From: Alphaproteobacteria bacterium
Lineage (GTDB): Bacteria; Pseudomonadota; Alphaproteobacteria; Bin65
Assembly: GCA_022819985.1 (NCBI GenBank)
Contig: JAJEGH010000004.1
Coordinates: 155,856-219,855, forward strand
Length of the DNA: 64,000 bases
Direction: 5' to 3'
Position numbers and translations under genes: made by a program. The first letter of the stretch is position 1. Each line of letters opens with the position of its first letter. A model generated the notes under the pieces. The model searched no databases. It was given only the letters and a program-made list of their open reading frames with translations, and was not told where the DNA came from. Below are positions 1 to 11,287 of the stretch, one piece after another.

Positions 1-606
1 AAAAATCTCGGTGGCGAGGGACGAGATCACCGCACCGCCGGCGAAGGCGCGGATCAGCGCAAGCATTTCCTCCGAAGCGCCGAGGAGCAGGAAATTTCCG
101 ATAACCGCCGCCGCGCCGAGCAGAACGGCCGTGCCGGTCCAGAGCGCCAGGATCCGGCCGTCCGGCCAGCCCGTCTCGCGCATGCGTTTCGCGCCGCCCG
201 CCGCTTCCGGCAGATTCGAGAGGAAGATGGACGCGGCCAGCGCGGCGACTTCCGGAAACCCGGCGCCGATCAGCGCAACGCCGAGGGCGAGGTTTTCCGG
301 GACGCCGTCGAGCGTGACCGCGGCGAGCAGGCCGGCCCCGCCCTCGTCGCCCCAGCGTTCGTCGATCAGATAGTCGATGCCGGCGAAGACCGCAGCGCCG
401 GCCAGCACCGCAGCGGCCGTCGCCTCGAACGAGGTCGCGCGCTGGGCCGGTACGATCAGTTCGAGCACCGCGGCGAGCATGAGCGCGCCGCCGCCCAGGG
501 CGAGGACGAAGCCTTCGGTCCGGTCGCCGAGCCGGCCGTAGAGGCCCCACAGCGCGCCCAGAAGCAGCGCCGACGAGACGGCAGCGGCGACGGCGAGTAG
601 GGTCAC
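1..606 (-). CDS. ZIP-family metal transporter, C-terminus cut off by window edge
   Basis: An open frame of 202 codons starts at a GTG (606-604) and runs off the left edge without a stop. It is almost entirely hydrophobic. The segment DGVPENLALG (about residues 100-109) and the later SNLPEAAGG match the two metal-binding transmembrane helices of ZIP transporters (consensus HNxPEG and HxxxE), with the first His replaced by Asp as in many bacterial homologues. By family it would move divalent metal (Zn, Fe or Mn) across the inner membrane. The start has no clear ribosome binding site, so a slightly different start is possible. Substrate cannot be told from sequence. Confidence 0.7.
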   Translation of the reverse strand, partial: MTLLAVAAAVSSALLLGALWGLYGRLGDRTEGFVLALGGGALMLAAVLELIVPAQRATSFEATAAAVLAGAAVFAGIDYLIDERWGDEGGAGLLAAVTLDGVPENLALGVALIGAGFPEVAALAASIFLSNLPEAAGGAKRMRETGWPDGRILALWTGTAVLLGAAAVIGNFLLLGASEEMLALIRAFAGGAVISSLATEIF

Positions 607-845
607 GGCCGGGCCGGCATCGCGCCGGTCGGGTATTCGCGAGGCATGCGCCGCACCATGTGCCACAATGCCGATCCGCCGCAAGGGCGGGAGCGGCCTT
701 CGCGGCCCGTCCTTGGCTTCCGCAGCCCATCGGGTAATCTTGCGGCGCCCTGGGGACCTCGATTACGGGGGCCGGTCCCGCGGTCCGGTCCCGTATCCCG
801 GTCCGGGGGCGGGAGCCGATGTGCAACCGGGGGAGCAGCCAAGCG

Positions 846-1286
846 ATGACCAGCCAGCTTGCCTGGGGGACGGTTCTGATCGTGCTGTCCATCGCCATTC
901 AGGCGACCCTGATGGCCGTGGCCGTCCGGACGATCCGGCGCCGCGCAGCCTGGCTCAGCCGGCCGCCGCACTTTCCCAAGCTGGCGGGCGCTTTCTGCGG
1001 CGTCTCGCTCTGGATGCTTGCGGGCCTGAGCGCGAGCGTCTGGATCTGGGCGGTCTTTCTCAATTGGACCGGCGCGCTGGCCGACCTCGAACTGTCGCTC
1101 TATTTCTCGCTCGTTTCGTTCACCACGCTGGGCTTCGGCGACATCCTGCTGGAAAAGCCCTACCGGCTGCTGTCGGGCATGATGGCCGCCGACGGGCTGA
1201 TCCTGTTCGGCCTGACCACGGCCTTCCTGATCGAGTTCATCCGCAGCCTGCACGTCGCCCAGGGCGAAGCGGACGACGGGGATTGA
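846..1286 (+). CDS. Small potassium-channel-like membrane protein (ion channel family)
   Basis: A 146-residue protein with hydrophobic segments at about residues 5-27, 48-75 and 107-135. Between the last two lies a pore-loop-like segment ending in TTLGFGD (about 93-99), a clear variant of the potassium selectivity filter TxGYGD. This is the architecture of the bacterial two-transmembrane 'Ion_trans_2' domain with one extra N-terminal helix. No cytoplasmic RCK or cyclic-nucleotide domain follows. I chose ATG 846 because upstream residues in this frame look non-coding. Selectivity for K+ is inferred from the filter only, and the Tyr-to-Phe change could alter it. Confidence 0.75.
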   Translation: MTSQLAWGTVLIVLSIAIQATLMAVAVRTIRRRAAWLSRPPHFPKLAGAFCGVSLWMLAGLSASVWIWAVFLNWTGALADLELSLYFSLVSFTTLGFGDILLEKPYRLLSGMMAADGLILFGLTTAFLIEFIRSLHVAQGEADDGD

Positions 1287-1527: not shown

Positions 1528-3690
1528 ATGAAAATCGCGGTCGTTTACAACCGAAGCAGCAAGAACGTGATCAACCTGTTCGGCATGCCGAACCGGGAGC
1601 GCATCGGCCTCAAAACGATCCACCGGCTGGTCGACGCCCTGAAGAAGGGCGGGCATCAGGTCATCTCGCTGGAAGCGGACAAGGATATCGTCGAACGGCT
1701 CGGGGATTTCATGCCCCAGGTTGTGCAGGGCGAGCGGCCGGGCATGGTGTTCAACGTGTCCTACGGCCTTCAGGGCCAGGCCCGCTACACCCATGTTCCC
1801 AGCATCCTGGAAATGGTCGGCATTCCCTATGTCGGGTCCGGACCGCTCGGCCATTCGCTCGCGCTCGACAAAGTCGTGACCAAGATGCTGCTCCGCCAGC
1901 GCGGCATCCCGACTCCCGATTTCGCCGTGCTCGACACGCCGGACGCCGAACTGCCGCCGGACCTGACCTACCCGATGATCGTAAAGCCCAAGAACGAGGC
2001 CGTTTCGTTCGGCCTGAAAGTCGTCGACGAAGAAAGCAGCCTGCGCGAAGCCGCCAAGGTCATTTACGACGAGTTTCGCCAGCCCGTGCTTGCCGAACAG
2101 TATATCACCGGGCGGGAGATCAATGTCGGCGTCCTGGGCAACGATCCGGTCGAGGCGTTCCAGCCCGTCCTGCTCGATTTCGGCGAAGGCCAGCAGATCT
2201 ACACCTACGAGGACAAGACCGGGCGCAGCGGCCGCGAAATCCGCCCGGTCTGCCCGGCGCCGATCGGCGAGGAACTGACGGAGAAGGCCAGGGACATCGC
2301 GATCCAGACCTTCAAGGTGCTGGGACTGAACGATTGCTCGAGGATCGATATGCGGCTCGACGACGCCGGGCAGCTTTACGTTCTCGAAGCAAATTCGCTG
2401 CCGAGCCTGGGCGAGCACGGCTCCTATCTGGTCGGCGCGGCCCATGCCGGCCTCGACTTTGCCGGGTTCGTCAACCGGCTGGTCGATGTCGCGACCGCCC
2501 GCTATTTCGGCGTGCCCGACGTGTCGCCGCTGGAGGCGGGGCCAAAAGATTCCGCCAGCCAAATCCTGCTCTACATCACGCAAAACCGGGAACGGATCGA
2601 GCGGCGGCTGCGCGACTGGGTGCAGTTGTCGAGCAGTTCCAACGATCCGGTCGGGATCGAACAGGCAGTCGGCAAGGCGGGCCGCATGCTCGAAGGTCTG
2701 GGGCTGAAACCGGTAAAGGAACTGACCGACGGCCCCGAAGTCTGGACCTGGCAGACTTCGGCCGGGCTCGATGGCGGCACCCTGCTGATCGCAAATCTGG
2801 ATACGCCGGTCGACACCAGGGTCGCCCTGCAGCCTTACCGGCGCGATCCGGAATGGGTCTATGGCGAAGGCGTCGGCACGTCGCGGGCGCCGCTGGTCAT
2901 TCTGGAATTCGCGCTTCGGGCGCTGCGCCGCATACGCAGGCTCGGCCGGACGCCGCTGGGCGTTCTCCTCTATACCGACGAAGGGCGGAGCGCGTTGCAC
3001 AGCGCCGAACTGATCCGCGAGGCGACGGCGCGGACGAAGCGCACGATCGTCCTCAGCCCGGTTGAGGCGGCCGGCGATTTCGTGACCAACCGGCGCGGCT
3101 CGCGGCGCTATCGCCTCACCGTGGAAGGCGAAGCGATCCGTCCGGGCAAGCGGACCAGGCGGGTTCCCGTCCTGCGCTGGGCCTGGAGCAGGCTCGGCGA
3201 GATGACCGAAATGACGTCGTCGAAGGCGCGGCTCGCGGTCGAGGTGCTGGACATCGAATCGGAGCGCAATCCGATGATGACGCCGCATCGGATCTCCGCC
3301 GAGATTGCCGTCGCCTATTTCAACGTCGAGGATGCCGAACGGGTCGAGCGGAAGATGCGGGAAATCCTCGGCAGGCGCGGACGGCGCTGGAAGCTGACCC
3401 TGCTCTCGGACCGGCCGCCGATGAAGGAGCGCGCCCAGGGCCTGCGCCTGGCGAGAGCCTTCGAAGAAGTCGCCCGGACGCTCGAACTGCCCGCAGGGCG
3501 CCATTCGTCGGCATGGCCTTCGGTTGCCGGCCTGGTTCCCGCCAGGGTCGCCTGCATCTGCGGCCTCGGCCCGGTCTGCCGCGACCGCGGTACTTCCAGG
3601 GAGGCGGTCCAGCGGGTCAGCCTGGTGCAAAGGTCGCTATTGCTGGCGACCTTCCTGAGCAGGCCGAGCGGGACGAAGAAACCGCAATGA
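1528..3690 (+). CDS. D-Ala-D-Ala-ligase-like ATP-grasp enzyme fused to a degenerate M20 peptidase domain
   Basis: The 720-residue product has two parts. Residues 1-345 resemble D-alanine:D-alanine ligase: an N-terminal Rossmann-like lobe, PYVGSGPLGHSLALDKVVTK near residue 110, and the metal-binding stretch LEANSLPSLGEHG near residue 289, where Ddl proteins have E-x-N. This half should form an amide bond using ATP and an acyl-phosphate intermediate. Residues 400-715 follow the fold order of M20 metallopeptidases, but the metal ligands are mostly missing: ANLDTPVD (about 422) in place of GHxDxVP, TDEGRS (about 483) in place of TDEExGS, and GTSREAV (about 688) where the last His is expected. The stop overlaps the next gene (ATGA), so translation is probably coupled. 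The acceptor and donor substrates are unknown. Confidence 0.8.
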   Translation: MKIAVVYNRSSKNVINLFGMPNRERIGLKTIHRLVDALKKGGHQVISLEADKDIVERLGDFMPQVVQGERPGMVFNVSYGLQGQARYTHVPSILEMVGIPYVGSGPLGHSLALDKVVTKMLLRQRGIPTPDFAVLDTPDAELPPDLTYPMIVKPKNEAVSFGLKVVDEESSLREAAKVIYDEFRQPVLAEQYITGREINVGVLGNDPVEAFQPVLLDFGEGQQIYTYEDKTGRSGREIRPVCPAPIGEELTEKARDIAIQTFKVLGLNDCSRIDMRLDDAGQLYVLEANSLPSLGEHGSYLVGAAHAGLDFAGFVNRLVDVATARYFGVPDVSPLEAGPKDSASQILLYITQNRERIERRLRDWVQLSSSSNDPVGIEQAVGKAGRMLEGLGLKPVKELTDGPEVWTWQTSAGLDGGTLLIANLDTPVDTRVALQPYRRDPEWVYGEGVGTSRAPLVILEFALRALRRIRRLGRTPLGVLLYTDEGRSALHSAELIREATARTKRTIVLSPVEAAGDFVTNRRGSRRYRLTVEGEAIRPGKRTRRVPVLRWAWSRLGEMTEMTSSKARLAVEVLDIESERNPMMTPHRISAEIAVAYFNVEDAERVERKMREILGRRGRRWKLTLLSDRPPMKERAQGLRLARAFEEVARTLELPAGRHSSAWPSVAGLVPARVACICGLGPVCRDRGTSREAVQRVSLVQRSLLLATFLSRPSGTKKPQ

Positions 3691-5336
3691 ACGAAAGCCG
3701 CGAAAGCCGCAGCGACACCCGTCCGGCCCGACGCGGCAGGAGCGGCGCCGGCCGGCGGGCGCAGGCCGAAAAGACCGTCGAGCCGCAGCGGATCGCCGTG
3801 TCCGGCAAAGGCATGGTGTCGACCCAGCATCGCTGCGCCACCCGCGCCGGAGTCCGGATGCTCGAAGAGGGCGGCAACGCCGTCGACGCCGCTGTTGCCG
3901 CCGCGCTTGCCCTGGGGGTCTGCGAGCCTGCGGCTTCGGGAATCGGCGGCCAGACCATGATGCTCGTCCATCTGGCCGAGCCCAAGCGCACCTTCGCCCT
4001 GGACGGCTCGTCCCGGGCGCCGTACCGGGCGGTTTCCGAGGTGTTTTCCGACCGCCGGAGCGAGGTCCGGCGGGGTTATCGCGCCGCGACGGTGCCGAGT
4101 GCGCTGGCGACCTACCATTATGTGCTCACCAGCTACGGCCGGCTCGGATGGTCGAAGGTTTTCGAACCGGCCATCGAACTGGCGCGGGACGGCTACCCGG
4201 TCAGCGCGCTGCAATACACGCTGACGCAGCGCGAACGCCGGCATCTCCTGGAGGGTACGGCAGCGCCGTTTTTTCTCGACGAAGGCAGGGCGATCCGGCC
4301 GGGGCGGATGTTCCGGCAGCCGACGCTGGCGGCCACCTTCGAACGCATCGCCCGGCAGGGAATGGAAGAGTTCTATCTGGGCGAAACGGCCGAGTTGATC
4401 CACCGGGACATGGAGGAGAATGACGGCCTGATCCGCAAGGACGACCTTGCCCAGATTCCCCACCCCATCGAGCGGCGTCCGCTGACCGGCCGGTTCGATT
4501 CCAACCGGGTATTCACCATGCCGCCGCCGGGCGCGGGGCGAACGCTGGTCGAAATGCTGAACGTATACCAGAACCTGTCCGGACGCGCCGCCGATCCGGA
4601 TACGCCGCTCGGCGCGGTGTTCCTGGCGGAGACGATCCGCCGGGCCACCCTCGACCGGCAGGACCGGCCCTACGACCCGAACTTCTATTCGCAGGTGTCG
4701 AGCCGCGAAATGGTCCGCACCGAATACGCCAAGCGCGTTGCGAGGCAGATCGGCAGGCGGATACAGAGCCGGGGCGAGACCACGCACCTGACGGTCATGG
4801 ACGAGGCCGGAAACGTCGTCGCGCTCACCCAGTCGATCGAGAATGTCTACGGCTCGTGCTGCGCCACGCCCGGCCTCGGCTTCCTCTACAACAACTACAT
4901 GAACGCCTTCGAATACAGCGATCCCTCGCATCCCTACTACATGCGGCCGAACGCGGTTCCCTGGGCCAGCGTGGCGCCGACGGTGATCTTTCGCGGCAGA
5001 AGGCCCTGGATCGCGATCGGGTCGCCGGGCAGCGAGCGCATCGCGCCGTCGATCCTCCAGGTCCTGCTCCGGTTGCGGCATTCCTCGCCCTTCGCCGCCG
5101 TCGAGGCGCCGCGCCTCCATTGTTCGCTCGACGGCAAGGTTTCGCTCGAGGCGTCCAGGATTCGCGACGACGTTCCGGCCAGGCTCGCAAAGCACGGATT
5201 CGAGGTCGTCCGCCGGGAAGCCTTCAGCTTCTACATGGGATGCGTCCAGATGGTGGTTCGCGACCACAAATCCGGCCGAATGACCGGCGTCGCCGATCCG
5301 CGGCGCGACGGCGCCGCCGCCGGGCCGGCGCGGTGA
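3687..5336 (+). CDS. ggt: Gamma-glutamyltransferase family protein
   Basis: A 549-residue Ntn-hydrolase of the gamma-glutamyltransferase family, which moves or hydrolyses gamma-glutamyl groups. EEGGNAVDAAVAAALALGV (about residues 52-70) is the classic N-terminal GGT segment. GETTHLTVMDEAGN (about 363-376) contains the autocleavage site: Thr365 would become the N-terminal nucleophile of the small subunit. YNNYMNAF and GSPGSERI further on match the substrate pocket. There is no signal peptide; the N-terminus is basic and low complexity, so the protein is probably cytoplasmic, unlike the periplasmic E. coli enzyme. The start ATG 3687 overlaps the upstream stop by 4 bp, and the 3' end overlaps the next gene. 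This suggests a role in processing the product of the upstream ligase rather than in scavenging glutathione. Confidence 0.9.
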   Translation: MNESRESRSDTRPARRGRSGAGRRAQAEKTVEPQRIAVSGKGMVSTQHRCATRAGVRMLEEGGNAVDAAVAAALALGVCEPAASGIGGQTMMLVHLAEPKRTFALDGSSRAPYRAVSEVFSDRRSEVRRGYRAATVPSALATYHYVLTSYGRLGWSKVFEPAIELARDGYPVSALQYTLTQRERRHLLEGTAAPFFLDEGRAIRPGRMFRQPTLAATFERIARQGMEEFYLGETAELIHRDMEENDGLIRKDDLAQIPHPIERRPLTGRFDSNRVFTMPPPGAGRTLVEMLNVYQNLSGRAADPDTPLGAVFLAETIRRATLDRQDRPYDPNFYSQVSSREMVRTEYAKRVARQIGRRIQSRGETTHLTVMDEAGNVVALTQSIENVYGSCCATPGLGFLYNNYMNAFEYSDPSHPYYMRPNAVPWASVAPTVIFRGRRPWIAIGSPGSERIAPSILQVLLRLRHSSPFAAVEAPRLHCSLDGKVSLEASRIRDDVPARLAKHGFEVVRREAFSFYMGCVQMVVRDHKSGRMTGVADPRRDGAAAGPAR

Positions 5337-6034
5337 AACTGCCGTTCCTGCTGTCGGTCCCCCATGCCGGGCTGACCGTGCCGCCGGAGGCGGCGCCCTA
5401 CTGCGCGCTCACGCCGCGCGAGATCGCAGAGGACGGCGACGAAGGGGCGGCGGCGATCTATCTCGGTCTGGAGCCGCTGGTTGCAGCCTTTCACACGACG
5501 GACATCGCCCGCGCCATCGTCGACATGAACCGGGCCGGGGACGACCGGAGGCGCGACGGCGTCGTCAAAACCCACACCTGCTGGAACGTTCCGGTCTACC
5601 GCGAGCCGCTGCCCGACAGCGTTGCCGAAGGGCTGATCGGCCGCTATCACCGGCCCTATCACCGCCGCCTGAGCGAACTGGCGGCCGAACGGCCCGTCCG
5701 CCTCGCCATCGACTGCCACACGATGGCCGCACAGGGCCCGCCCGTCGGCCCCGACGCGGGCTGCGAACGGCCGTGGATATGCCTGGGATACGGCGACGGG
5801 ACCTGCCCGGACGCGTGGATCGAGGCGCTGAAAGAGCTGTTCGAGCGCCGGATCGGTGCGCAGGTCACGATTAACGAACCCTTCGGCGGCGGCTACATCA
5901 CCCGGATGCATTCGGCTGAAATGCCGTGGCTCCAGCTGGAAATGTCGCGGGCGCCCTTTCTTTCCGACGCCGAAAAGTCCGGCCTTGTCCGGGACGCGCT
6001 GAGCGAGCTGGCGGGGTGCATCGGGGCGGCGTGA
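5333..6034 (+). CDS. N-formylglutamate amidohydrolase family protein
   Basis: A 233-residue zinc hydrolase of the N-formylglutamate amidohydrolase (FGase) family. Diagnostic segments are SVPHAG (residues 8-13), the DMNRAGDD region (about 63) and IDCHTMA (about 125-131). Family members hydrolyse N-formylglutamate in histidine breakdown, but no hut genes are nearby. Its start GTG 5333 overlaps the stop of the gamma-glutamyltransferase gene (GTGA), making three coupled genes. The context therefore points to hydrolysis of an N-acyl or peptide-linked glutamate made by the operon. That substrate assignment is inference. Confidence 0.85.
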   Translation: MKLPFLLSVPHAGLTVPPEAAPYCALTPREIAEDGDEGAAAIYLGLEPLVAAFHTTDIARAIVDMNRAGDDRRRDGVVKTHTCWNVPVYREPLPDSVAEGLIGRYHRPYHRRLSELAAERPVRLAIDCHTMAAQGPPVGPDAGCERPWICLGYGDGTCPDAWIEALKELFERRIGAQVTINEPFGGGYITRMHSAEMPWLQLEMSRAPFLSDAEKSGLVRDALSELAGCIGAA

Positions 6035-7321: not shown

Positions 7322-8917
7322 CTATTCCAGAACCAGCTTCGGCTCGATTTCCAGCGTTGCCGCCAGGTCGCCGAGGCGGCGGTCGATCACTTCGCCGGAA
7401 TAGTGGGCGGCATGGGCCTCGACCTGCAGCGCAAGGCCGCGGTCGGTGCGCTCGAAACGGCTGCCGGCGAGGATTTCGGGCCGCCCGGCGGCGACGGTGT
7501 AGCCCAGCCGCAGGGCCTGGCCGAGCGCGCGGGCGTCGCGGATATCCTCTTCGCCGAGGCCGGTGTCGCGGGCGATCCGCTCCATCGGCTCCTGGATGCC
7601 GCCGCTGTAGCGCGCGCTTGCCGCCAGGGCGAGGAAGGCGCGGCCCGGATGGTCCAGGCCCATCAGCGGAGCGGTCAGGATGCGGTCCCAGGCGTGGCGG
7701 TTGCGGTAGTCCGGATGGTCGATCCAGCCGGCGTCGGCAATCTCGCAGGCCGCCCGGCGCAGCCGCGCCCGTTCCCTGCTTTCCTGCGGGAAGAGGCCGC
7801 CGGTCCAGGCGGCGAGCGCCGGTCCGAGGCCGGTGAAGCGGCAGAAGCGCTGACCGTAGGCGGCCGCCCCGGCGAGCAGCGGATCGGCGCGCCGCGTCCT
7901 CAGGTCGAGGGCTTCGTAAAGCACCCCCTCGCGGACGCCGCGCGCGGCGAAGACGATCTGCGCCGGCCGGGCGATGCGGATCAGGCGGCGCAGCACGATG
8001 GCCGACGCCCGCACCGCTTCGATCCGCCGGACCGAAATCGCCGGAAGCCGCTCCAGCCCCCGCTCGCTCTGGCGGGCCAGAAGTTTCGCGAAATCGGCGA
8101 ACTCCACGGCCCCGGCCCGGTACCCGTCGATCATCCTGAGCGCCCGGTCGTGCTGCGCCATGTGCACCTTGGCCAGCGAGCGCCACGCACCGCCCACCGC
8201 GTAGAGCGTCCCGCCTTCCGCGCCGGCAAGCCAGTCGATTTCGGTCAGCGCCTTCTTGACCGCTCCGCCGACCGTTTCACCCTGCGCCATGGCCTCGTTG
8301 AGGCGCAGCGGGCCAAGCGGCAGGGTCGCCATCTCGCGGACCTGCTCGCCGCCGACCCGGACCAGCTCCAGGCTGCCGCCGCCCAGGTCGCCGACGATGC
8401 CCTCGGCCCGGGGAAAGCCGGCCATGACGCCGTAGGCCGAAAGGCGGGCCTCGTCCTCGCCGCTCAGCACCCGGACTTCGAGGCCCGGATCGCGCCGCAG
8501 CGCCTCGATGAAGGCCGGGCCGTCCGCCGCCTCGCGCACGGCCGCGGTCGCAAAGGCCGACAGGCCCGCCACCTTCATGGCGGCGGCCGCGCCGACGAAG
8601 CGGCCGAGATTCGCCCTGGCCTGGACGACGCCGTCCGGGTTGAGCCGGCCGGTGGCGCGCAGGCCGCGGCCCAGCCCGCACATCACCTTCTCGTTGAAGA
8701 TCGGAATCGGCGCGCGGGCCGACCCCTCGAACACCACAAGGCGGATGGAATTGGAGCCGATGTCGATGACGGCGACCCGCCGCCCGAGATAATCGTGCGC
8801 TGCCCCGGCTTCCGGGCCGGCTTCGCCGCCGTCCGCGGCCGGGCCGACCGGCAGTACGGCGACGTTACCCGCAGCGAAACCTTGCGCGGCAGCGTCTTCG
8901 GCGAGGCCGGAGGCCAT
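7322..8917 (-). CDS. ppx: Ppx/GppA family exopolyphosphatase
   Basis: A 531-residue member of the ASKHA-fold Ppx/GppA family that removes terminal phosphate from polyphosphate (or pppGpp). VAVIDIGSNSIRLVVFE (about residues 48-64) is the first phosphate loop and GIVGDLGGGSLELV (about 173-186) is the second. The C-terminal part carries the HD-like domain typical of the long Ppx form. The first 45 residues are poorly conserved and Ala/Gly-rich, so the true start may lie near VAVID. The gene follows ppk on the same strand with a 42-bp gap, the normal pairing of polyphosphate synthesis and breakdown. Confidence 0.9.
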   Translation of the reverse strand: MASGLAEDAAAQGFAAGNVAVLPVGPAADGGEAGPEAGAAHDYLGRRVAVIDIGSNSIRLVVFEGSARAPIPIFNEKVMCGLGRGLRATGRLNPDGVVQARANLGRFVGAAAAMKVAGLSAFATAAVREAADGPAFIEALRRDPGLEVRVLSGEDEARLSAYGVMAGFPRAEGIVGDLGGGSLELVRVGGEQVREMATLPLGPLRLNEAMAQGETVGGAVKKALTEIDWLAGAEGGTLYAVGGAWRSLAKVHMAQHDRALRMIDGYRAGAVEFADFAKLLARQSERGLERLPAISVRRIEAVRASAIVLRRLIRIARPAQIVFAARGVREGVLYEALDLRTRRADPLLAGAAAYGQRFCRFTGLGPALAAWTGGLFPQESRERARLRRAACEIADAGWIDHPDYRNRHAWDRILTAPLMGLDHPGRAFLALAASARYSGGIQEPMERIARDTGLGEEDIRDARALGQALRLGYTVAAGRPEILAGSRFERTDRGLALQVEAHAAHYSGEVIDRRLGDLAATLEIEPKLVLE

Positions 8918-8943
8918 TCAGGCGCGTTCCCTCAAGGCCATCC

Positions 8944-8970
8944 CCTCAATGGCATCCTCTCAATGGCATC
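8944..8970. repeat. 14-bp direct repeat spanning the ppk stop codon
   Basis: CTCAATGGCATCC occurs twice with a 14-bp period between ppx and ppk. The second copy contains the ppk stop codon (8960-8962), so duplication or loss of a unit could move the end of the protein. Confidence 0.7.
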
Positions 8971-11287
8971 CGGGCGACGGCAGGCCGGCCGGCGGGCGCC
9001 GGCCTTTGCTGCGCCCCTTGCCGTAGCCCTTGCCGTAGAGAGCGCTGCCGCGGCCGGAAAGGCTCGGATTGGTCATGAAATAGGTATGGCAGGAAAAGTC
9101 CTCCGGCGCACGCCCGGAAGCGTCGCCGGCCTCCGGGCCGGATTCTGAACCGGCCTCCGGGCCGGTCCCGCTGCCAGTTCCGCTGCCGTTTCCGCTGCCG
9201 TTTCCGCTGCCGGGCGAAACCCGGGCATAGCGGCCGGCCGCGTCGAGCACCCAGCTCTGCCGGTTGTCGTTGATCTGCGCGACCATGATCTGGTCGAGCA
9301 TCTGCTCGTGCACGGTCGGGTTCTCGATCGGCACCAGGCTCTCGACCCGGCCGTCGAGGTTGCGCGGCATCCAGTCGGCCGACGACAGGTAGAGCGGCGC
9401 ATCGCGGTTCGGCAGGGCCTTGCCGTTGGCGAAGGCGACGATGCGCGAATGTTCGAGGAAGCGGCCGATAATGCTCTTGACCCGGATATTCTCCGACAGG
9501 CCCGGCACCCCCGGCCGGAGGCAGCAGATGCCGCGCACCACCAGGTCGATCTGCACCCCGGCCCCGGAGGCGCGGTAGAGCGCGTCGATCAGCGGGCCGT
9601 CGACCAGGGCGTTCAGCTTGGCCCAGATCTGCGCCGGCTTGCCGGCCCGGGCGTTGGCGATTTCGGTGTCGATCTGCTCGAGCAGGGTCTGGCGCAGGTC
9701 GATCGGCGCAACCGCGATCTTCTGCATCGGCTCGGGCCGGGCATAGCCGGTCATGTAGTTGAACAGGTGGGCGGCGTCGCGGGTCAACACCGGATCGCAG
9801 GTGAAGAAGGACAGGTCGGTATAGATCCGCGCCGTGACCGGATGGTAGTTGCCGGTGCCGAAATGGGCGTAGCTGGCCAGGCCGTGGCCCTCGCGCCGCA
9901 CGACCAGCGAGACCTTGGCGTGGGTTTTGAGGTCGAGGAAGCCGTAGACGACCTGGGCGCCGGCCCGCTCCAGGTTGCGCGCCCAGCGGATATTGGCCTC
10001 CTCGTCGAAGCGCGCCTTCAGCTCGACCAGGGCCGTGACGCTCTTGCCCGCCTCGGCCGCTTCGGCCAGCGCCGCGACGATCGGCGAATCCGTGCTCGTC
10101 CGGTACAGGGTCTGCTTGATCGCCACGACGGAAGGATCGCGCGCCGCCTGGCGCAGGAACTGCACGACGACGTCGAAGCTCTCGTAGGGATGGTGGACGA
10201 CGATGTCCTTGGCCCGGACCGCGGCGAAGCAGTCGCCGCCGAAGTCGCGGATGCGTTCCGGCGAGCGCGGGTTGTAGGGCTCGAACAGCAGGTCCGGCCG
10301 GCCGTTGTCGATCAGCTGGTTGACGTCGGCGAGCCCGAGCAGGCCGTCGATCTCGACGACATCGTCTTCCGGCACCTCCATTTCCTTGACGACGAAGCGG
10401 CGCAGGCCCGCCGGCATCGCGGCATCGACCGACAGGTGGATGACATGGCCGCGCCGGCGCCGTTTCAGCGCCGTTTCGAACAGGGCGACCAGGTCTTCGG
10501 CCTCTTCCTCGATCTCGATGTCGCTGTCGCGGATCACGCGGAACAGGCCACGCGCCTGGACCTCGAAATCCGGGAACAGGTGGTGCAGCATCAGCCCGAC
10601 CAGGTCCTCGAGCGTCACATGGCGCGCCGAGTCGCCGGGCAAACGGACGAAACGGGGCAGCTGGTCGGTCAGGCGGACCAGCGCATAGAGCGAATCGCCC
10701 CGGTCCGGCTGCGCCAGTTCCAGCGCGATCGCCAGGCCCAGATTGGGGATGAAGGGGAAGGGATGCGCCGGATCGACCGCAATCGGCGTCAGGACGGGGA
10801 ACACCTCTTCCATGAAATGCCGGTCGAGCCAGGCAAGTTCGGCGGCGCTCAGCGCGCCCGGATCGACGACGCCGATGCCGCGCGGCTCCAGATCGGCCTT
10901 CAGGCGCCGCCAGGTATCGAGCTGGGAATCGATCAGGTCGCCGGCGCGCTCGTGGATCGCGCGCAGCTGTTCGGCCGGCGTCAGGCCGTCCTGGCTCGGC
11001 GCGGTTACGCCGGCTTCGACCTGCCCTTTCAGCCCGGCGACCCGGACCATGTAGAATTCGTCCAGATTACTCGAGGAAATCGACAGGAACCGCAGGCGCT
11101 CGAGCAGCGGATGATCCGGATTGTCCGCCTCTTCCATGACCCGCTCGTTGAAGGCGAGCCAGGAAAGCTCCCGGTTGATGAACCGCCCGGAATCGGTCGG
11201 CGAAATGCCTTCGGCGTCCGGAATATCGTCTCCGGCGTCGGCGAAGCGCGCGTCGCTGTCCTGTAACGGGGCGATCCGGTCGTCCAT
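8960..11287 (-). CDS. ppk: Polyphosphate kinase 1
   Basis: A 775-residue PPK1 that polymerises the ATP gamma-phosphate into polyphosphate. The N-terminal domain starts with [16 protein letters not shown] and [14 protein letters not shown]. The autophosphorylated His is His456 in [15 protein letters not shown], and the second essential His is His613 in [14 protein letters not shown]. The core ends near residue 700 and is followed by a tail of about 75 residues not usual in PPK1, containing Gly-Ser-Asn/Thr repeats encoded by a 12-bp minisatellite, then a basic Gly/Lys/Arg stretch. The tail is probably disordered. A 73-bp intergenic region separates it from the divergent sixA-like gene. Confidence 0.96.
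9168..9213. repeat. 12-bp minisatellite inside the ppk 3' end
   Basis: The unit CGCTGCCGTTTC (plus-strand reading) is repeated almost four times and encodes the Gly-Ser-Gly-Asn/Thr run in the tail of polyphosphate kinase. A second pair of 16-bp repeats lies just beside it at 9126-9165. Period 12 keeps the reading frame. Confidence 0.8.

Follow-up and report, generated by a model that had tools for sequence, protein, structure and literature searches.

In this study, we undertook a computational analysis of three overlapping genes in a stretch of 64,000 nucleotides (the window) from an Alphaproteobacteria bacterium (assembly GCA_022819985.1, contig JAJEGH010000004.1, positions 155,856 to 219,855). 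The genes encode an ATP-grasp ligase resembling D-alanine-D-alanine ligase (Ddl) that is fused to a peptidase-like domain (lig), a member of the gamma-glutamyltransferase (GGT) family (ggt) and a member of the N-formylglutamate amidohydrolase (FGase) family. The layout of three genes with 4-base overlaps that had been reported in a preliminary description of the window was confirmed (Table 1). The genes are referred to below as the trio, and the loci and genomes compared with the window carry L and G numbers.

Table 1. Coordinates in the window of the trio, its parts and junctions, and an upstream gene.
Feature	Position	Strand	Description
lig	1528..3690	+	720 amino acids; Ddl-like ATP-grasp ligase fused to M20-fold pseudopeptidase
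lig, ligase half	1528..2517	+	residues 1-330
lig, M20-fold half	2548..3690	+	residues 341-720; carboxypeptidase G2-like fold without two-metal site
ATGA overlap, lig/ggt	3687..3690	+	4 bases
ggt	3687..5336	+	549 amino acids; GGT-family Ntn (N-terminal nucleophile) hydrolase
GTGA overlap, ggt/FGase	5333..5336	+	4 bases
FGase-family (PF05013) amidohydrolase	5333..6034	+	233 amino acids
Ion_trans_2 (potassium-channel-like) protein	819..1286	+	155 amino acids; 241 bases upstream of the operon; Pfam match

Comparison of loci from other genomes revealed that the trio recurs with little variation. At the 21 full-length lig loci with readable downstream DNA, five of which are near-identical Acidimicrobiia, ggt was close behind lig in 21/21 and FGase in 20/21, the FGase gene of L063, cut by a contig end, being counted as present. 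The gene order in L010 is lig-FGase-ggt-ggt. Left out of the 21 were loci whose contigs end inside lig, ggt or FGase (L003, L005, L009) or in lig (L064), fragments (L017, L018, L056), ligase-only loci, and second copies such as L039, L040, L043-L052, L057, L058 and L067. Gene junctions ranged from -17 to +12 bases in 41 of 42 cases, as measured from the in-frame start closest to the upstream stop, a choice that favours small gaps; the window's two junctions are among the 42, those of L075 are outside them, and the exception was L012, in which ggt is broken by a stop. The pairwise distances of the three proteins correlate with one another at 0.97, 0.96 and 0.94 (171 pairs from 19 loci), and at 0.95, 0.92 and 0.89 when close pairs were dropped (155 pairs). 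Correlations of this kind are expected of co-inherited genes and, taken together with the tight recurrence, they are strong evidence that the three genes form one coupled unit, in agreement with the earlier suggestion that their products are needed together. The three proteins very probably act in one amide pathway.

A scan of contigs identified 18 loci with a lig relative, 16 of which match at least 683 residues at 53-91% identity, the other two being fragments in a Phycisphaerales assembly. The 16 come from assemblies with the labels Boseongicola, Alphaproteobacteria, Rhodospirillales, Acidobacteria, Terriglobia, Vicinamibacteria, Acidimicrobiia, Ectothiorhodospiraceae and, doubtfully, Nealsonbacteria. 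Genome surveys, which scored only a few candidates per genome at E<=1e-100 and give lower bounds, found matches in at least 4/299 genomes of the window's phylum (two of the four to the ligase half only), at least 8/199 of the phylum of G051 (at least 9/392 with two candidates scored per genome), at least 2/199 of the phylum of G048 and at least 1/148 of the class of G043. The surveys added loci from the phylum of the Phycisphaerales assembly and two deep loci with identities of 33-35% for lig, 43-44% for ggt and 40% for FGase: L053, from the window's own phylum, whose protein is named from a Burkholderiales assembly, and L066, from the phylum of a Terriglobia assembly. Besides the window, the trio occurs in other Pseudomonadota and in Acidobacteriota, Actinomycetota and Planctomycetota, and the case raised in the preliminary description, that the genes might be found together only in close relatives, gave way to conservation across many lineages and several phyla. 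Two assemblies call for comment. Three pieces of lig (L017, L018 and L056) lie at three places of the chromosome-level assembly G051, which has stretches of N, and probably reflect an assembly fault; L011 is labelled Candidatus Nealsonbacteria, a doubtful label since its assembly is 9.1 Mb.

The distribution of lig among the window's relatives is patchy. All of 41 genomes searched near the window have a match to the ligase half or the M20 half somewhere, and full-length lig was present only in the window's own genome; none was found in 10 close genomes (six of the same genus and four of the same family, two of the latter about 75% complete). In a midpoint-rooted tree of the ligase half, in which the Ddl branch is very long, the window groups with L001 and L004 beside an Acidimicrobiia pair (support 97/94), followed by three Acidobacteriota rows (96/95) and one row, L060, from the phylum of the Phycisphaerales assembly (87/88), while two other Acidobacteriota rows, L009 and L010, are placed elsewhere. 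The trio is best read as having moved between phyla as a unit, with the reservation that its loci are mostly from metagenome assemblies, in which labels can be wrong. Eight phage records matched lig at 27-32% identity, all in the ligase half only, as an ordinary Ddl would, and a phage origin was set aside. No plasmid copy of the whole trio was found at E<=1e-60; plasmid matches consisted of 13 records to the ligase half (one of them to residues 1-442) and two to the GGT, both Bradyrhizobium.

The ligase half has retained the catalytic positions of an ATP-grasp enzyme. K153, E190, R272, D274, E287 and N289, which align with catalytic positions of Ddl and presumably share its roles in ATP and Mg binding, are invariant in 83 sequences, and these residues are common to lig and Ddl. 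What separates the two is that the Ddl motif PGMTxxS, which we take to hold the carboxylate of the second D-Ala, is replaced in lig by PSLGExGSY, and that lig falls below the NCBIfam cut-offs for Ddl (173.8 versus 243 bits for PRK01372 and 157.7 versus 245.65 for TIGR01205). In addition, the window's genome encodes an ordinary Ddl elsewhere (G000:C6:82817-83707), near open reading frames (ORFs) that by eye resemble MurC and FtsZ. With lig below the cut-offs and a second Ddl in the genome, the possibility noted at the outset that the ligase half is the cell's ordinary D-Ala-D-Ala ligase was ruled out. Searches of a protein database gave 1937 lig relatives at E<=1e-50 among 8000 scored candidates and, in a second search, 1778 at E<=1e-60, which may overlap the first set. 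Among the best 120 relatives of each search, the few that are named carry the names 'D-alanine-D-alanine ligase', 'M20/M25/M40 metallo-hydrolase', 'ATP-grasp protein' or 'hypothetical protein', and judging by its sequence neither of the first two fits lig.

The M20 half presented a different situation. A structure model of lig built from 83 sequences, which replaced a poor 12-sequence model (pLDDT 61.3), has an M20 fold in this half that is similar to carboxypeptidase G2 (CPG2). We take the two-metal ligands of CPG2 to be H112, D141, E176, E200 and H385, and counted the corresponding residues in the 83 sequences of the clade that includes the window (clade 1) and in 121 rows of a second clade of the full fusion (clade 2), in which the sequence of L066 occurs twice. 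The first metal His is kept in 75/83 and 46/121, respectively, and is Asn in the window's lig; the bridging Asp position has Asp in 0/83 and 6/121 and Glu in 1 and 25; the E176 position has Glu in 0/83 and 0/121; and the last His position has His in 0/83 and 7/121. The fusion of an ATP-grasp ligase to an M20 fold proposed in the preliminary description is retained, but an active two-metal M20 peptidase was ruled out as most metal ligands are gone in both clades, and this loss distinguishes the M20 half from CPG2 and from PahZ2, another M20 enzyme with metal-binding residues. Since D425, D484 and E485, among others, are conserved in clade 1, the M20 half probably binds some ligand. Its nearest folds are CPG2, desuccinylase, carnosinase and PahZ2, whose substrates are acidic or N-acyl amino acids and dipeptides. 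The names in clade 2 derive from Nitrosomonas aestuarii, Nitrosomonas sp., Nitrospina and Nitronauta litoralis, and gene neighbours in this clade were seen for L053 and L066. The main text of a salinity study of nitrifiers had none of the gene terms sought.

The product of ggt shares with GGT and the class IV cephalosporin acylases membership of the GGT family and an N-terminal nucleophile threonine, T365, which is kept in 20/20 loci; by eye, it has no signal peptide. Unlike GGT, it has lost the donor Arg and Asp: alignment with the E. coli enzyme gave R114->S108 and D433->A407, each change being present in 19/20 loci. Four of six further pocket positions also differ (N411->E385, Q430->Y404, S462->A427 and G484->S449), while S463 and G483 are kept as S428 and G448; we take G483 and G484 to be the glycine positions of the E. 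coli pocket. E385 is the residue of B. subtilis, and a Ser-to-Ala change is tolerated in B. licheniformis. The pocket residues of the window's ggt hold in 17-20 of 20 loci, one ggt being counted per locus; the second, tandem copy in L010 has Asn at 385 and Ser at 427. The cut-off of TIGR00066 was narrowly missed (347.7 versus 357.85 bits). As described in part of the text of PMC8062742, R114 and D433 of E. coli GGT contact the alpha-carboxylate and alpha-amino groups of the donor, an Asp-to-Ala change at the D433 position of the B. subtilis enzyme abolishes transfer and leaves 40% of hydrolysis, and this pocket Asp also sets the class IV cephalosporin acylases apart from GGT.

With the donor Arg and Asp gone, gamma-glutamyl transfer by ggt is unlikely. 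On the aligned residues gamma-glutamyl chemistry is disfavoured, with hydrolysis of some gamma-glutamyl compound still possible, and the protein probably acts as a hydrolase in the cytoplasm, its acyl preference probably altered. The initial proposal that a GGT without a signal peptide moves or removes gamma-glutamyl groups is weakened in its first part. A related proposal, that the trio carries out a reversible gamma-glutamyl protection of an amine, can draw on the names of the protein families and on some of the pocket changes being normal or tolerated in true GGTs (the Glu in B. subtilis; R109S and S460A in B. licheniformis), but it now appears most improbable given the changed donor pocket, the loss of transfer in the corresponding B. 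subtilis mutant and the finding that, in greedy ORF clusters of the flanking DNA, no tailoring enzyme for the middle step recurs beside the trio. Two tandem GGT genes, 43% and 63% identical to the window's ggt, were observed in L010 (L010:12845-16157), where they are preceded by FGase.

The third protein is a clear member of its family, with a score of 140.3 bits against PF05013 (Pfam gathering score 28.9), and is far from the HutG cut-off (TIGR02017; 59.6 versus 278.75 bits). H11, H129 and E203 are invariant across 19 loci. Enzymes of the FGase family act on N-acyl amino acids. This activity accords with a salvage function in which amino acids released from N-acyl or acidic peptides by the two hydrolases are built by the ligase into a minor product, as do the difference of class IV acylases from GGT at the pocket Asp that is also lost here, and the SDF dicarboxylate symporter and amino acid permease near L010. 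It is difficult to reconcile with lig being the first gene, with loci that have the ligase but neither ggt nor FGase (L054, L065 and L069-L073; for L069-L073, FGase as judged from annotation) and with the lack of any uptake system recurring across lineages in the greedy ORF clusters; we consider salvage to be improbable.

Examination of the genes flanking the trio, for which proteins picked by eye were scanned with Pfam in four sets of 10 and one set of 9 (some of those scanned not being trio neighbours), identified several families linked to ion transport. Mechanosensitive-channel proteins of PF05552 directly adjoin the trio in L004, L009, L010 and L016, and in L005 a PF05552 gene is upstream of MgtE and CNNM. 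MgtE is near the trio in L005, L009, L010, L066 and L075, CNNM in L005, L010 and L062, a Na/Ca exchanger in L062, CorA in L006 and L016 and, by similarity, in L007 (in pieces), L012 and L013, and SulP in L014 and, by similarity, in L008. In genome-wide counts, PF05552 was present in 13/17 trio genomes and within about 0.5 kb of the trio in 4/17 (G042, G045, G046 and G050) against 0.03-0.04 expected; in these four, any other PF05552 gene is on the same contig. MgtE was within 4 kb of the trio in 3/18 genomes versus 0.08 expected (G656 has one at about 8 kb), and CNNM was near it in 2/17 versus 0.11 expected. In L066, the region beside the trio (L066:1-8106) has DUF47 and a PHO4 phosphate transporter in addition to MgtE, and also a cluster made up of a second FGase, a GCS2 ligase, RimK with an RLAN domain, a C39-like peptidase and DUF5698.

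Based on these results we tentatively propose that the operon makes and recycles a small amide solute that serves in osmotic or cation balance, a reading to which we would give slightly less than an even chance. In such a pathway, the ligase would form the amide solute from two amino-acid-like molecules and the M20 half might bind or position an acidic substrate or product for it. The GGT member, as a plain cytoplasmic hydrolase, and the FGase would then take the solute apart again, recycling it rather than acting on a precursor, and the solute itself could help to balance osmotic pressure and cations. The small pathway for a peptide metabolite put forward in the preliminary description remains our best guess in its general form, with a small amide or peptide as the product. 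A bolder version is rather doubtful, namely that the solute is a small acidic amide of an undescribed class of osmotic or counter-ion compounds. A ligase of the Ddl branch, with a dead glutamate carboxypeptidase as the arm that holds its substrate, would make this amide, a GGT-fold hydrolase and an FGase would recycle it, and the genes would form a coupled cassette passed horizontally, often with its own mechanosensitive channel, in at least four phyla.

A number of observations weigh against the proposed solute pathway. Unless it is regulated, an operon that both forms and cleaves one bond would run a futile cycle, and no recurring regulator was seen. Nine of the 13 genomes with PF05552 have none beside the trio, and no ion-transport neighbour was seen in L001, L002, L011, L015, L053, L059-L061 and L063, for which few or no flanking ORFs were scanned. 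As G045 and G046 are near relatives, the four channel cases amount to about three independent ones, and the excess of such neighbours is overstated because of this kinship and because the families were chosen after the loci had been seen. FGase is dispensable, being absent from L008 and its genome assembly G044, and none is annotated in the Bradyrhizobium cluster described below. As regards the reading of ggt as a hydrolase, the changes in its pocket also allow a different view: according to the part of PMC8062742 that treats them, Ser occupies the Arg position in extremophile GGTs, B. licheniformis R109S keeps 85% activity, S460A of the same enzyme (the S462 position) is more active than its parent, and Glu is normal at the E385 position in B. 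subtilis GGT.

Relatives of the ligase outside the trio bear on two further explanations. The 13 rhizobial plasmid records have the ligase half alone, at 36-46% identity, and six of them were opened for their neighbouring genes. In four of the six, these included KamA (L068, L072), PanD (L071, L072), or a gene named EctB together with a second ATP-grasp (L070). A Bradyrhizobium barranii plasmid (L068:5282-10047) encodes a KamA-type aminomutase, a GGT and a seven-transmembrane (7TM) protein followed by the ligase, with no FGase or M20 annotated. The 7TM protein matches Pfam 7TM_transglut, and its score against NCBIfam RloB ('osmotic stress tolerance membrane protein') was 45.3 bits, far below the cut-off of 900. 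In L065 (7521-9968), a 7TM-like stretch lies in one frame with a ligase of the lig family, possibly as a fusion. Part of the text of PMC8632152 reports that the 113-2 orthologues of the KamA- and GGT-named genes bll8232 and bll8231 change expression in soybean nodules; from names and gene order these two are likely to be the Bradyrhizobium KamA-GGT cluster.

One explanation for these findings is that the trio produces a specialised secreted or signalling peptide, with the ligase making a dipeptide-like product, the hydrolases trimming protecting or precursor acyl groups, and the ion transporters nearby by accident. The patchy distribution and transfer of the trio would suit such a product, as would the KamA, PanD and EctB-named neighbours with the second ATP-grasp and the nodule expression data, if bll8232 and bll8231 are indeed that cluster. 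However, no exporter, carrier protein or dedicated tailoring enzyme recurs beside the trio in the greedy ORF clusters, and channel genes adjoin the trio in three lineages, making a peptide of this type unlikely in our view, if a serious contender. The other explanation is a modification of proteins or cell-wall peptides in the style of RimK or RloABC with the hydrolases as erasers. The RloB-like 7TM beside the Bradyrhizobium ligase, the 7TM-like stretch in frame with the L065 ligase and the RimK, GCS2, FGase and C39 cluster adjoining the trio in L066 are all features to be expected of it, but neither a 7TM nor a retropepsin nor RimK is part of the trio, and the ligase is of the Ddl branch, whose members couple free amino acids. 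We therefore regard a modification system as very improbable.

The trio was also compared with known systems. The NAGGN osmoprotectant system is a three-gene operon for a dipeptide osmolyte that consists of asnO, ngg (GNAT/ATP-grasp) and an M42 peptidase. Like the trio, it pairs an ATP-grasp ligase with a hydrolase and one further enzyme, but the GNAT, asparagine-synthase and M42 families are not present in the trio, whose ligase is of the Ddl branch and fused to an M20 pseudopeptidase. The amidoligase clusters of Iyer et al. 2009 reportedly form a catalogue of operons of ATP-grasp and COOH-NH2 ligases with peptidases. In Pseudomonas, RloABC/RimBK joins an ATP-grasp and a hydrolase in a system tied to osmotic stress tolerance, with RloB and RloC linked to osmotic stress in the portion of PMC12239564 concerned with them; it differs from the trio in its retropepsin and 7TM, the 7TM_transglut domain being seen only in the rhizobial relative beside which the RloB-like protein lies. 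The trio thus appears to work like dipeptide-osmolyte and amidoligase operons without the gene sets that define those compared. The literature searched held no paper that joins FGase and GGT with an ATP-grasp or Ddl, although prior mention is possible as the amidoligase catalogue was unchecked. If the proposed solute exists, a widespread compound that acts as an osmolyte or balances ions has escaped notice, and these genes are a direct handle for finding it. Whether or not it does, the trio offers an amide pathway that can be tested, one that includes a fused pseudopeptidase, and it warns against taking GGT-family genes to be gamma-glutamyl enzymes.

A role of the trio in anti-phage defence was also considered and rejected because PADLOC gave no match for the lig, ggt or FGase proteins. 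Among the other genes of the window, the Ion_trans_2 gene upstream of lig is a possible functional neighbour outside the conserved trio; no relatives of its product were found at other trio loci. The left end of the window (1-684, minus strand; L074:9758-10540) encodes a 260-residue hydrophobic protein that by eye has the look of a ZIP-type metal transporter, a reading that was set aside as the ORF had no Pfam match. Downstream of the trio, on the minus strand at 7322-11287, are two ORFs that by eye, from their sequences, resemble an exopolyphosphatase and a polyphosphate kinase.

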